NCBI GenBank assembly: GCA_002170735.1 | Contig: NHIV01000025.1 | Coordinates: forward strand, 1-19,917 | Reading direction: 5' to 3' | DNA length: 19,917 nt | DNA from: a bacterium TMED198 | Lineage (GTDB): Bacteria > Fidelibacterota > Marinisomatia > SCGC-AAA003-L08 > D37C17 | Shown here: in pieces, positions 8,886-17,993 of the stretch | How the letters are laid out: the number at the start of each line of letters is the position of its first letter | How positions within the stretch are numbered: the first letter of the stretch is position 1 | Notes under the pieces: generated by a model | Told to the model about the DNA's origin: nothing | Database searches by the model: none | What the model saw: only the letters and a program-made list of their open reading frames with translations | Program-made: the position numbers and the translations under genes

Positions 8886-9338
8886 TTAATATTCTTTAAG
8901 AATATCTAGAGCATGGGTTTTAGTTTTAACCTTTTCATAGGCCTTTTCAACCACACCATTTTCATCTATAACATATGTATATCTATTGATGCCCATATAT
9001 TCTCTTCCCATAAATTTCTTTTTACCCCATACCTTATATTCTTCCAACATCTGATGGGATTCATCACACAGCATTGGATACTGAAAGTTATATTTTTCAA
9101 CAAACTTTTTTTGTTTGGGAACAGAGTCTGCTGATACACCAATAACTGAAATATTCTTGCTATGAAATGTTTTGAATTCATCACGGAACCCCTCACTTTC
9201 GACAGTTCAGCCTGGTGTACTTGCCTTGGGAAAGAAAAAAAGGACTAACTTTTTGCCACTAAACTCTGATAGTGTCCTCATATTACCATAGGCATCAGGC
9301 AGATTAAATTCCGGGGCTTTTTCACCAATTTTTAGCAT
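8886..9338 (-). CDS. bcp: Selenocysteine-containing peroxiredoxin, Bcp/PrxQ family (in-frame TGA as Sec at residue 44)
   Basis: A thiol peroxidase of the Bcp/PrxQ family, 150 residues if the in-frame TGA at 9209-9207 is read as selenocysteine. Translation from ATG 9338 gives MLKIGEKAPEFNLPD, then LVLFFFPKASTPG, the TGA, then TVESEGFRDEF and so on without another stop to TAA at 8888-8886. In Bcp the residue after TPG is the peroxidatic cysteine that attacks hydroperoxides, so TGA replaces the catalytic residue exactly. Thr41 and Pro42 of the PxxxT(S)xxC motif and the C-terminal GRExMGINRYTYVIDENG block are intact. The usual resolving cysteine at +5 is Glu49; the only cysteine is Cys91. AAGGA precedes the ATG by 5 bases. 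A nonsense-mutated pseudogene is the alternative, but a hairpin downstream and the precise position argue for Sec. Confidence 0.9.
9174..9191 (-). promoter_or_regulatory. Candidate bacterial SECIS hairpin
   Basis: In the mRNA sense the stretch reads GGGTTC-CGTGAT-GAATTC, a 6-bp stem (two G-U pairs) closing a 6-nt loop. It starts 16 nt after the TGA and the loop starts 22 nt after it. G is the second loop base. These features fit the known bacterial SECIS consensus: a short stem-loop within about 16-37 nt of the UGA with a G among the first two loop bases, bound by SelB. It was found by eye; no folding energy was computed. Confidence 0.6.
9207..9209 (-). other. In-frame TGA, predicted selenocysteine codon
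   Basis: The codon reads TGA on the minus strand and is codon 44 of the peroxiredoxin gene, in the context TPG-TGA-T. Every Bcp homologue I know has Cys, or Sec in rare cases, at this place. TGA does act as a stop in this genome (the ispF end at 14141-14143), so global reassignment of TGA is not the explanation. Confidence 0.87.
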
Positions 9339-9416
9339 ATGTATTCCTTAAAATATTATGTTATAGATTATTGCAAAAAATATAGATTAAATTTAGAATA
9401 AACAACAGGATTTAAA
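9339..9416. promoter_or_regulatory. Divergent promoter region between the selenoprotein peroxiredoxin and the glutaredoxin
   Basis: This 78-base gap separates two divergent redox genes. On the plus strand TTGCAA at 9371-9376 and TAGAAT at 9394-9399 are 17 bases apart, a reasonable sigma70-type promoter for the glutaredoxin operon, followed by an ACAGGA ribosome-binding site at 9405-9410. On the minus strand AAGGA lies just upstream of the peroxiredoxin ATG; I did not find a clear promoter for it. Shared regulation of the pair is possible. Confidence 0.4.
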
Positions 9417-9668
9417 ATGGTTAAAATTTATTCAACAAGCTGGTGCGGTCCTTGCAAGATGGCGAAAAGAATTTTAGATGAAAGGGGCACATCATATAAA
9501 GAAATTAACATAGAAGAAGAAAATATTTCAAGAGAAAAGCTTAAAGAGATTACAGGAGGAATGACCGTACCTCAAATTGTTATTAATGATAATTGTATTG
9601 GTGGTTTTGATCAGCTTTTTGCATTACATCAAAGCGGAGAATTGGATTCATTGCTAAAAGATGATTAA
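9417..9668 (+). CDS. grxC: Glutaredoxin (GrxC-like) with CGPC active site
   Basis: An 83-residue single-domain protein of the glutaredoxin 3 size and fold. The redox motif is Cys10-Gly-Pro-Cys13 in STSWCGPCKMAKRIL; classical glutaredoxins have CPYC, while WCGPC is the thioredoxin motif. The glutathione-binding features are glutaredoxin-like: Thr50-Val51-Pro52 (cis-proline loop) and Gly62-Gly63-Phe64-Asp65. It reduces disulfides or mixed thiols, probably with glutathione, in the cytoplasm. It heads a plus-strand run and its last 8 bases overlap the next gene. It is transcribed divergently from the selenocysteine peroxiredoxin, which lacks the usual resolving cysteine, so it is a candidate reductant for that enzyme (inference). 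Confidence 0.88.
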   Translation: MVKIYSTSWCGPCKMAKRILDERGTSYKEINIEEENISREKLKEITGGMTVPQIVINDNCIGGFDQLFALHQSGELDSLLKDD

Positions 9669-13654: not shown

Positions 13655-14143
13655 ATGTCATATAAAATTGGCCAAGGATTTGATGCGCATCAACTGATTG
13701 TTTCTTCTAAACCTTTTTTATTAGGAGGGGTCTCAATAGATTGTAATTTTACTGTTGAGGGCCATAGTGATGGAGATGCATTAATTCATTCAATAGTTGA
13801 TGCCATTTTGGGGGCCTTAAATGAAAGTGATATAGGCCACCACTTTCCATCATCAAATCCTAAATATAAAAACTTTTCAAGTTCAGAATTCTTACTTTTC
13901 ACAAAAGATTTATTGAATAAAAAAAAATATTCTATTTGCAATATTGATGCAACAATAATTCTTCAAAAGCCTAGCATTAGTAAGTATAGAGATAAGATAA
14001 AAAACAATCTATCTAAGCTTTTAGAAATTCCAGTTGATCAAGTCTCAATTAAAGCAACAACTACAGATAGGCTAGGCTTTATTGGAAGAGGAGAAGGAAT
14101 TGCAGTTCTATCCAATATATTAATTGTAGAGGAAAAAGCGTGA
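13655..14143 (+). CDS. ispF: 2-C-methyl-D-erythritol 2,4-cyclodiphosphate synthase (IspF)
   Basis: IspF cyclises the CDP-methylerythritol 2-phosphate intermediate in the non-mevalonate (MEP) isoprenoid pathway, releasing CMP. The 162-residue product has the zinc ligands Asp10 and His12 in GFDAH and His45 in EGHSDGDALIHSIVDAI. GALNESDIGHHFP and the C-terminal KATTTDRLGFIGRGEGIAV are diagnostic. GGGAG at 13646-13650 sets the ATG. It ends in TGA, the only TGA terminator among the 19 genes whose stop lies in the window, and this TGA overlaps the GTG start of gltX. ispE, the enzyme that makes its substrate, lies three genes downstream in the same run. Confidence 0.96.
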   Translation: MSYKIGQGFDAHQLIVSSKPFLLGGVSIDCNFTVEGHSDGDALIHSIVDAILGALNESDIGHHFPSSNPKYKNFSSSEFLLFTKDLLNKKKYSICNIDATIILQKPSISKYRDKIKNNLSKLLEIPVDQVSIKATTTDRLGFIGRGEGIAVLSNILIVEEKA

Positions 14144-15507: not shown

Positions 15508-17152
15508 TAAAAATTTTATAATTAATATTATTGATAAAGACTCTGATAGTCAAACTATTCATACAAGGTTCCCACCCGAACCAAATGGCTATCTGCACAT
15601 TGGGCATGCCAAATCAATTTATCTAAACTTTGAAATTGCTGAAAAATATAATAATGCAACTTGCAATTTAAGGTTTGATGATACCAACCCTTCTACAGAG
15701 CAACAGGAATTTGTAGATCAAATAATTCTAGATATTGAATGGCTAGGATATTCGATTTCAAATAGAACAATGTTTGCCTCTGATTATTTTGAACAAATGT
15801 ATAAATATGCTCTACAGTTAATTAAACAAGGTTTGGCATATGTAGATGATCAATCTGCTTCTGATGTTAGAAAAACTAGAGGGACTCTTACTTCTTCAGG
15901 TGTAGAAAGTAGATTTAGAAATAGATCCATTGATGAAAACTTAGATTTATTTCAAAAAATGAAAGATGGCCTTTACAAGGATGGAGAAAAAGTACTAAGA
16001 GCAAAAATTGATATGAGTTCTCCAAATTTGAATTTAAGAGATCCTGTAATGTATCGAATTATGCATGCTAATCATCATAGAACAAAAGATGCCTGGTGTA
16101 TTTATCCCATGTATGATTGGGCTCATGGAATAGAAGATTCAATAGAAGGTATTAGCCATTCTTTGTGTTCTTTAGAGTTTGAAGATCACCGTCCACTTTA
16201 TGATTGGTTTTTAAATCAGTTGAAAATTCATCACCCTAAACAGATTGAATTTGGAAGATTAAATCTAACCCATACCTTAATGAGCAAGCGAAAACTTGCA
16301 AAGTTAGTATATGACAAAGTGGTAGATGGGTGGGATGATCCAAGGATGCCGACAATATCAGGTTTAAGAAGAAGGGGTTATACACCTGATTCCATTAAAG
16401 CTTTTCTAAATGATATTGGAGTGACTAAACACGATGGTTTTATTGATTACTCTTTGTTAGAGTTTTTTGTAAGAGAAGATTTAAATAAAATTTCTTTAAG
16501 GGTAATGGGAGTTTTAGATCCACTAGAGATAGAGATAGTAAATTACCCAGAAGGTGAATCGGAATGGCTTACTGCTGAAAATAATCCCGAAGATAAATCT
16601 CAAGGAGAGCGTAAAATTCCTTTTTCAAAACATTTATATATTGAGAGATCTGATTTTATGGAAGATGCGCCTAAAAAATATTTTAGATTAAGTTTAAATA
16701 ATGAAGTTAGACTTAAGCATGCCTATTATATTGTATGTAAAAAGGTTATTAAATACAAAAACGGTCAAATAGCCAAACTATTATGTGAATATGATCCTTC
16801 AACAAAGGGTGGATGGTCAAATGATGGAAGAAAAGTCAAAGGCACTTTGCACTGGGTCTCTAAAGCTGATGCAATTGATGCAAACATCAATTTGTATGAT
16901 CATCTGTTTGAAATTGAAAACCCAGACTCTTCAGAAGGTGATTTTTTAGATCACATTTCAAAGAACTCTAAAAAAACTATTTCTAATTGCAAGTTAGAGC
17001 CTAGTTTAAAAGCTGCAAAGTTAGATCAAAAATTTCAATTTATAAGGTTAGGTTATTTTTGCTTAGACTCTAAAAATAACAAGGGCTTAACTTTTAATAG
17101 AACCATTTCACTTAGAGATTCTTGGGCAAAAAAAAATAAAGGGTCTAAATAG
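15500..17152 (+). CDS. glnS: Glutaminyl-tRNA synthetase (GlnRS)
   Basis: GlnRS charges tRNA-Gln directly with glutamine, replacing the GatCAB amidotransferase route used by most bacteria. The 550-residue product matches E. coli GlnS (554). The HIGH motif is in FPPEPNGYLHIGHAKSI (33-36) and KMSKS is LMSKRKL near residue 264. GlnRS-type blocks include NLRFDDTNPSTE and the C-terminal two-barrel anticodon-binding region ending in GLTFNRTISLRDSWAK. It overlaps gltX by 8 bases. A tRNA-Gln gene lies about 850 bases downstream in the same orientation, with only ispE between. The GlnRS/GluRS pair in tandem probably arose by keeping a eukaryote-derived GlnRS beside the native GluRS. Confidence 0.96.
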   Translation: MSNKNFIINIIDKDSDSQTIHTRFPPEPNGYLHIGHAKSIYLNFEIAEKYNNATCNLRFDDTNPSTEQQEFVDQIILDIEWLGYSISNRTMFASDYFEQMYKYALQLIKQGLAYVDDQSASDVRKTRGTLTSSGVESRFRNRSIDENLDLFQKMKDGLYKDGEKVLRAKIDMSSPNLNLRDPVMYRIMHANHHRTKDAWCIYPMYDWAHGIEDSIEGISHSLCSLEFEDHRPLYDWFLNQLKIHHPKQIEFGRLNLTHTLMSKRKLAKLVYDKVVDGWDDPRMPTISGLRRRGYTPDSIKAFLNDIGVTKHDGFIDYSLLEFFVREDLNKISLRVMGVLDPLEIEIVNYPEGESEWLTAENNPEDKSQGERKIPFSKHLYIERSDFMEDAPKKYFRLSLNNEVRLKHAYYIVCKKVIKYKNGQIAKLLCEYDPSTKGGWSNDGRKVKGTLHWVSKADAIDANINLYDHLFEIENPDSSEGDFLDHISKNSKKTISNCKLEPSLKAAKLDQKFQFIRLGYFCLDSKNNKGLTFNRTISLRDSWAKKNKGSK

Positions 17153-17153
17153 T

Positions 17154-17993
17154 ATTTATATATCTAATGCTAAAGTAAATTTAGGACTCAGAATTTTAAA
17201 TAAAAGAGATGATGGTTATCATAATATTGAATCATTTTTTATTGAGTTAGATTTTCACGATTCCTTAATATTTAAAGAATCTAAAAAATATTCATTAACA
17301 AGTTCGGGATACTCAGTTCCAAACGATGAAACAAATATAATTTTCAAGGCCTATGAAGCTATTAAACCAACAAAAATAAATAATGAATTTTCAATTTTTC
17401 TCGAAAAAAACATACCAATAGGCTCGGGGCTTGGTGGAGGAAGTAGCAACGCAGCCACAACACTAAAAACTCTGAATAAACTTTGGAATCTTAACTATTC
17501 AAATAAAAAACTATTAAATCTTGCTAGAAAGATAGGAGCAGACGTTTCTTTTTTTATTAGTGGGGGGATTCAAAAAGTAGAAGGAATTGGCGACATTTTA
17601 TCACCCATAAAAACCACAGCATTTGAAAGAAAAATTTTCTTGTTAGTAATTCCCAATTTTTCAATTTCAACGAGTTGGGCATATTCAGAAATAAAAAAGT
17701 ATTTGTCCTTAGACAATAATAGTGCTAAATTTTGCTCCCTTGATTTATCAAGGAATTTAAAGTTATTTGAAAATGTATTTGAGCATGTTGTAGTATCAAC
17801 ATATCCAGGGATTGGAGATATAAAAAAGATTTTATTATCTGAAGGTGCAATATATTCCAGTTTGTCGGGCAGCGGTTCGACTGTGTTTGGTATATTTAAT
17901 GATAAAGTTCAAGCAGAAATTGCTGCTTCGAAATTTCCATCTTATAAATCCATATTTTCTAAAATCCCAAATAAAGATATTACTCTTATTTAA
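17154..17993 (+). CDS. ispE: 4-diphosphocytidyl-2-C-methyl-D-erythritol kinase (IspE), non-canonical start
   Basis: IspE is the GHMP-family kinase of the MEP isoprenoid pathway, phosphorylating CDP-methylerythritol for IspF. The frame reads ISNAKVNLGLRILNKRDDGYHNIESFF, the ATP-binding block IPIGSGLGGGSSNAA (about residues 89-103), GADVSFF and the C-terminal SLSGSGSTVFG, all typical. The product would be 279 residues, a normal length (E. coli 283). The frame opens at 17091 after a stop, and no ATG, GTG or TTG occurs before the conserved AKVNLGL. The best start is ATT at 17154, with AAGGG about 10 bases upstream; ATA at 17160 is another candidate. The first conventional start codon, TTG at 17640, would remove the ATP site and cannot be right. 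Confidence 0.85.
   Translation: MYISNAKVNLGLRILNKRDDGYHNIESFFIELDFHDSLIFKESKKYSLTSSGYSVPNDETNIIFKAYEAIKPTKINNEFSIFLEKNIPIGSGLGGGSSNAATTLKTLNKLWNLNYSNKKLLNLARKIGADVSFFISGGIQKVEGIGDILSPIKTTAFERKIFLLVIPNFSISTSWAYSEIKKYLSLDNNSAKFCSLDLSRNLKLFENVFEHVVVSTYPGIGDIKKILLSEGAIYSSLSGSGSTVFGIFNDKVQAEIAASKFPSYKSIFSKIPNKDITLI

Follow-up and report, generated by a model that had tools for sequence, protein, structure and literature searches.

A Bcp/PrxQ peroxiredoxin gene of Candidatus Marinimicrobia with an in-frame TGA that is very probably read as selenocysteine

The DNA analysed in this work is a stretch of 19,917 nucleotides (hereafter named the window), which is contig C65 of the genome G000 (1,138,084 bases in 80 contigs, 65.86% complete). 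From its sequence we hold with strong confidence that its minus strand encodes a working Bcp/PrxQ peroxiredoxin of Candidatus Marinimicrobia (Neomarinimicrobiota, SAR406), in which the UGA at codon 44 would be decoded as selenocysteine (Sec). The comparisons described below make it very probable that this stop-interrupted gene, from an ocean lineage without cultured members, is functional.

The interrupted Bcp frame and its relatives in the class

Translation of the minus strand confirmed the continuous frame of 150 codons that had been described previously, running from the ATG at 9338 to the TAA at 8886 with a single in-frame stop, the TGA at codon 44. The residues around this codon read PKASTPGUTVESEGFRD (U = TGA). 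The peroxidatic motif PxxxTxxC/U is therefore present as PKASTPGU, and the TGA occupies the peroxidatic position (TPG-U-T), as had been claimed. The Shine-Dalgarno-like AAGGA lies 6 nt 5' of the ATG. In the list of open reading frames of at least 60 amino acids the gene is represented only by a 62-residue fragment (8886-9074), which bears out the earlier remark that gene callers would see just this part. The features considered in the text are the following:

8886-9338, minus strand: putative Sec-containing Bcp/PrxQ peroxiredoxin gene of 150 codons with TGA at codon 44, assigned from profile matches and class orthologues
9207-9209, minus strand: in-frame TGA, putative selenocysteine codon, from the TGA/Cys column in 70 homologues
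9173-9192, minus strand: candidate bacterial SECIS hairpin, with pairing at the family level and, taken alone, no stabler than shuffles
9345-9349, minus strand: AAGGA, Shine-Dalgarno-like, read from the sequence
9417-9668, plus strand: divergent glutaredoxin-3-like gene (CGPC), 81.9 bits with TIGR02181, under the cut-off of 90

Profile searches were performed with the TGA of codon 44 read as Cys. The protein gave 131.4 bits with the Pfam family AhpC-TSA (cut-off 26) and 164.8 bits over residues 2-146 with NCBIfam PRK09437.1, thioredoxin-dependent thiol peroxidase (cut-off 140). This full-length match above the curated cut-off places it in COG1225 (Bcp/PrxQ). The nearest solved chain was 5enu, a Cys protein (E 3.1e-27).

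The conservation of the TGA was analysed in 120 genomes of the same class, G000 included, with an orthologue threshold of E <= 1e-41. An orthologue was found in 87 of them; it contained exactly one internal stop, TGA each time, in 75 genomes (identity of at least 48%) and no stop in 12 (identity of at least 46%), the remaining 33 giving weaker or partial matches and, in one case, none at all. Seventy homologues were extracted, namely 56 with TGA (from 55 of the 75 TGA genomes, plus the distant L172) and 14 with Cys (the 12 stop-free orthologues, L144 and the partial L145). The column aligned to codon 44 holds TGA in the 56 former and a Cys codon, TGT or TGC, in the 14 latter, with no other codon, and all 55 sequences from the TGA genomes carried their TGA at this position. 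L172 (44% identity, TGA) may be a paralogue rather than an orthologue, and the same may hold for L144 (G021, Cys, 42% identity). The TGA at codon 124 of L145 (G047, Cys) is near the contig end and was counted as the end of the gene, not as Sec. The preliminary description had reasoned that a chance nonsense mutation would rarely fall on exactly this residue, and it had pointed to an alignment of homologues and to other stops in relatives as checks; the placement proved not to be random, the column held only TGA or Cys codons, and each of the 75 stop-bearing orthologues had one TGA and no other stop.

Named loci gave the same picture. Among the best 80 of at least 414 relatives, the active-site residue was U in 17 and Cys in 63, and all 17 U loci bore the name Candidatus Marinimicrobia or Neomarinimicrobiota. 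The closest named relatives among the matches listed were metagenome assemblies of this same group.

A second, more distant peroxiredoxin-like group was also visible in the class (E of about 1e-24 to 1e-34, about 34-46% identity), and many of its members likewise contain one internal TGA.

The hairpin 3' of the TGA and the selenocysteine machinery

In the TGA sequences, columns 18-24 (numbered from the U of UGA) pair with columns 31-37 around a six-base loop. This loop was CGUGAU, CGGGAU, CGUGAC or CGGGAC, with G at position 2, in 55 of the 56 rows, and at least six of the seven stem pairs were kept in 54 of them. The window hairpin carries G as the second base of its loop, CGUGAU, and can form six of the seven family pairs; two of these are G-U, and the seventh stays open. 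Its folding was compared with dinucleotide shuffles and received no support from them (z +0.77; 166 of 200 shuffles were as stable).

Covariation was assessed on 54 TGA rows, L168 and L172 (1 and 5 of 7 pairs) being excluded because their stems misfit the common register; each of them can form another hairpin. Against shuffles that do not preserve the relatedness of the rows, 94.7% of the cells were paired (87.2% in shuffles; 0/500 as high), 25 cells were changed on both sides (9.0 in shuffles; 0/500 as high) and four pairs showed such a change (2.3 in shuffles; 8/500 as high). The best slid register reached only 64.6% paired cells and seven both-side-changed cells, and RNAalifold recovered the same helix with six pairs. 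Pair 21-34 couples a synonymous site, the third position of a Gly codon, with the first base of a Phe/Leu codon, and it was A-U in 34 rows, G-C in 13, G-U in six and another combination in one. In synonymous-codon shuffles of the 56 TGA rows, two windows, beginning 1 and 4 codons past the TGA, had the lowest mean z values among the 42 taken along the gene (-1.53 and -1.65, respectively), with only 29% and 36% of the single rows in the lowest 5%. The same two windows were unremarkable within the set of 14 Cys rows (z -0.56 and -0.85). Twelve of these Cys rows had fewer than six of the seven pairs, ten of them belonging to the family f6. As judged from these alignments, a bacterial SECIS hairpin with a loop guanosine is found at the family level and is weak in the window sequence.

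Two Cys rows, L142 (G105) and L143 (G091), keep the hairpin and come from genomes in which one or more selenium genes were found; they look like recent Sec-to-Cys reversions.

A tRNA-Sec gene was located in G000 (C31:18108-18199; 65.6 bits, gathering score 47), and ARAGORN called it tRNA-SeC with the anticodon tca. Scores at or above the gathering score were obtained in 80 of the 120 class genomes. A match of some kind was obtained in each of the 14 control genomes, of which only five passed the cut-off; therefore, the choice of cut-off matters. Together with the TGA/Cys column and the family covariation, this tRNA supports the selenocysteine reading proposed earlier.

Selenium use is widespread in the class, matches at the set thresholds being obtained for selA in 90, selB in 85 and selD in 90 of the 120 genomes. 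In 74 of the 75 TGA genomes one or more of the three genes was present, as compared with three of the 12 genomes with Cys (Fisher p 4e-9, uncorrected for relatedness), and all three were present in 52 of the 75. The 75th TGA genome is G000 itself, which has the tRNA-Sec; selA, selB and selD were not found in its 65.86%-complete assembly. Of the machinery that the preliminary description had proposed to search for, the tRNA was thus recovered in G000 and the three proteins were not, in an assembly that is not the complete genome for which that description had counted their absence as refuting. The best selB match in G000 (C38, 196.4 bits, under the cut-off of 242.25) was read as EF-Tu and discarded, a reading that rests on the length of its frame, 401 codons, and on the proximity of a frame of 694 codons, the size of EF-G.

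The surroundings of selAB were examined in five genomes of G000's own family. G014, G003 and G017 share the order rimM-trmD-rplS-GAF/HD-selA-selB-mutS-orf-yicC-gmk, and the block GAF/HD-selA-selB-mutS-orf-yicC-gmk is common to G022 and G011. The contig of G022 breaks off within the GAF/HD gene. For G011, a further 3.3 kb past this gene was retrieved, in which rplS, trmD and rimM were not found. Searches of G000 for mutS and trmD found neither, and the GAF/HD gene was not found there either in a search run without a positive control. Because these neighbours of selAB are missing too, a gap in the assembly is likely, and it is the simplest reading for the absence of selAB from G000.

These data bear on the possibility that the species has lost SelA, SelB and SelD, the Bcp gene being a relic that yields a truncated peptide only. 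The three missing genes and the weakness of the window's own hairpin speak for such a loss, which we nevertheless consider very unlikely, given the incompleteness of the assembly, the concomitant absence of the genes adjoining selAB in the related genomes, and the persistence in G000 of both the tRNA-Sec and a second redox frame interrupted by TGA (see below). Moreover, the small-genome family f6 shows Cys where the machinery was not found: selA, selB and selD were found in none of its 18 genomes, no tRNA-Sec over the cut-off appeared for it among the matches listed, and all nine of its genomes with an orthologue at E <= 1e-41 have a stop-free gene with Cys. A genome-wide reassignment of UGA, for instance to Trp or Gly, has nothing in its favour beyond the open Bcp frame and is extremely improbable, since TGA terminates the window gene 13655-14143 (one of 19 window frames checked), occurs just once in the Bcp gene, at the Cys column, and is matched in G000 by a tRNA-Sec with the anticodon UCA. 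Equally negligible is a pseudogene or sequencing error, in which TGT or TGC was mutated to or misread as TGA: the assembly is indeed fragmented and incomplete, but a lone TGA with no other stop recurs in 75 of 120 genomes, at the same codon in all 55 extracted. Decoding of codon 44 as Sec is the reading retained here.

The second TGA at a redox Cys of G000 is in locus L181 (C80, 238-2160), a frame of about 634 codons; two TGA codons lie close to its end, and the earlier one was taken as the stop. The internal TGA is within the motif FFAPN-U-PVC. The ResA-like domain to which this motif belongs scored 53.2 bits, under the family cut-off of 170, and follows a long N-terminal region; the hairpin 3' of the TGA has a three-base loop with G first.

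One TGA was also present inside 91 of the 95 selD matches listed (L050 and L051 are among the selD set); therefore, SelD itself is probably a selenoprotein in the class. Table 1 of PMC5029168 gives three SAR406 genomes with an 'orphan SelD' and no other selenium genes, a pattern that, as the present results on other genomes suggest, missing data could explain.

Resolving cysteine, glutaredoxin neighbour and Sec/Cys history

In the mechanism that we propose, SelB bound to the hairpin would deliver Sec-tRNA(UCA) to the UGA of codon 44, and the selenolate of the resulting enzyme would attack peroxides and be converted into selenenic acid. The protein would work by a '1-Sec' mechanism, with an external thiol restoring the active site, and the likeliest donor would be the divergent glutaredoxin or a thioredoxin. 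Such '1-Sec' action of the window Bcp is probable because the resolving Cys that ordinary Bcp has at position +5 from the active site is replaced in it by Glu.

A resolving Cys at +5 is common in Bcp/PrxQ proteins without defining all members, and a residue of the +36 type can serve as resolving Cys in other PrxQ proteins. Among the named loci (best 80 of at least 414 relatives), +5 Cys was present in 62 of the 63 Cys homologues and in none of the 17 Sec loci, two of these Cys rows and three Sec rows having been scored by visual inspection as the pattern did not match them. In the class set, Cys was found at +5 in six of 56 Sec rows and none of 14 Cys rows, and at +36 in 16 of 56 Sec rows and 11 of 14 Cys rows. 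Proteins other than Sec proteins can also lack the +5 Cys, as judged from the alignment of 5enu, a Cys Bcp with a Gln-Leu-type sequence and no Cys in the +5 region.

The glutaredoxin-3-like gene is arranged head to head with the Bcp gene, with 78 bases between them. Neighbourhoods were compared over flanks of up to about 1.5 kb, some of them ended by contig edges. The divergent pair was present at 21 of the 56 TGA loci, all in families f1, f2, f3 and f5: at 15 of the 16 TGA loci of f1, the exception (L012) being at a contig end, and at all six of f2, f3 and f5. No such pair was seen within these flanks at the remaining 34 TGA loci or at the 14 Cys loci. On the grounds of sequence and gene order, the glutaredoxin is a possible reductant partner of the Sec-Bcp.

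The history of the Sec and Cys states was analysed in a tree of 89 rows (the 70 class sequences and 19 hand-picked from the 63 named Cys loci), rooted at the midpoint. At least four Sec/Cys changes are required, and the well-supported branches force the same number. They probably represent a single acquisition of Sec followed by three returns to Cys, in family f6, in G091/G105 and in G058. L144 clusters with the outside Cys rows, and the placement of the long rows L172 and L144 is unsure. The association of the Sec/Cys state with the +5 and +36 Cys pattern is suggestive only because the gain and reversion events are few. Nested reversions within one class should be useful for asking why selenocysteine is retained or lost.

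A more comprehensive scenario can be put forward tentatively, and we regard it as rather less probable than its failure. According to it, replacement of Cys by Sec and loss of the resolving Cys in Marinimicrobia would have given rise to a 1-Sec peroxidase whose reductant is a glutaredoxin, transcribed divergently and co-regulated with it, and the later Sec-to-Cys reversions would have occurred mainly where the +36 Cys could substitute as resolving residue.

Known selenocysteine-containing peroxiredoxins

PrxU of Eubacterium acidaminophilum is a peroxiredoxin with Sec at the peroxidatic position. The window Bcp shares this feature with PrxU (NF040737) and belongs to a different subfamily, reaching 40.6 bits with that profile against a cut-off of 270. 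Its homology with the ordinary Cys Bcp/PrxQ proteins (PRK09437; 5enu, 3gkk, 5iox) is full-length; these have Cys where the window protein has Sec, and the +5 resolving Cys so frequent in the named Cys homologues is absent from it.

The preliminary description regarded a Sec-Bcp in this lineage as apparently little described, which overstated its novelty. According to the passages considered here, a Sec-containing Prx of COG1225 (Bcp) with the motif TxxU was described from marine metagenomes in 2005 (PMC1088965), 253 Sec-Prx (pfam00578, TxxU) were reported in GOS samples (PMC2398784), Prx was entered as COG1225 (Bcp) with TxxU (PMC9312934), and the PxxxTxxU motif has been described (PMC13188914). 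Sec-Bcp is an established family, and the window protein is a new member of it. The proteins of PMC1088965, PMC2398784 and PMC9312934 agree with the window Bcp in COG, TxxU motif, UGA with bacterial SECIS and marine source. The passages drawn upon name no host phylum for them, whereas the window Sec-Bcp is placed in Candidatus Marinimicrobia, and to these reports it adds the gene context, the state of the resolving Cys and the Cys reversions. No description of a Sec-Bcp in Marinimicrobia/SAR406 was found in the passages covered, PMC8318568 and PMC5029168 included. Table 1 of PMC1794560 tabulates 12 Sec-Prx with five Cys-to-Sec events and no Sec-to-Cys event; relative to that table, the three reversions proposed here are new.

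Elsewhere in the window, a candidate broken gene at 17152-17640 was rejected as an artefact of requiring an ATG, GTG or TTG start. The whole frame 17091-17993, which we take to resemble ispE, is open throughout, and the list of open reading frames gives only its C-terminal part because it has no such start codon near the N-terminus.
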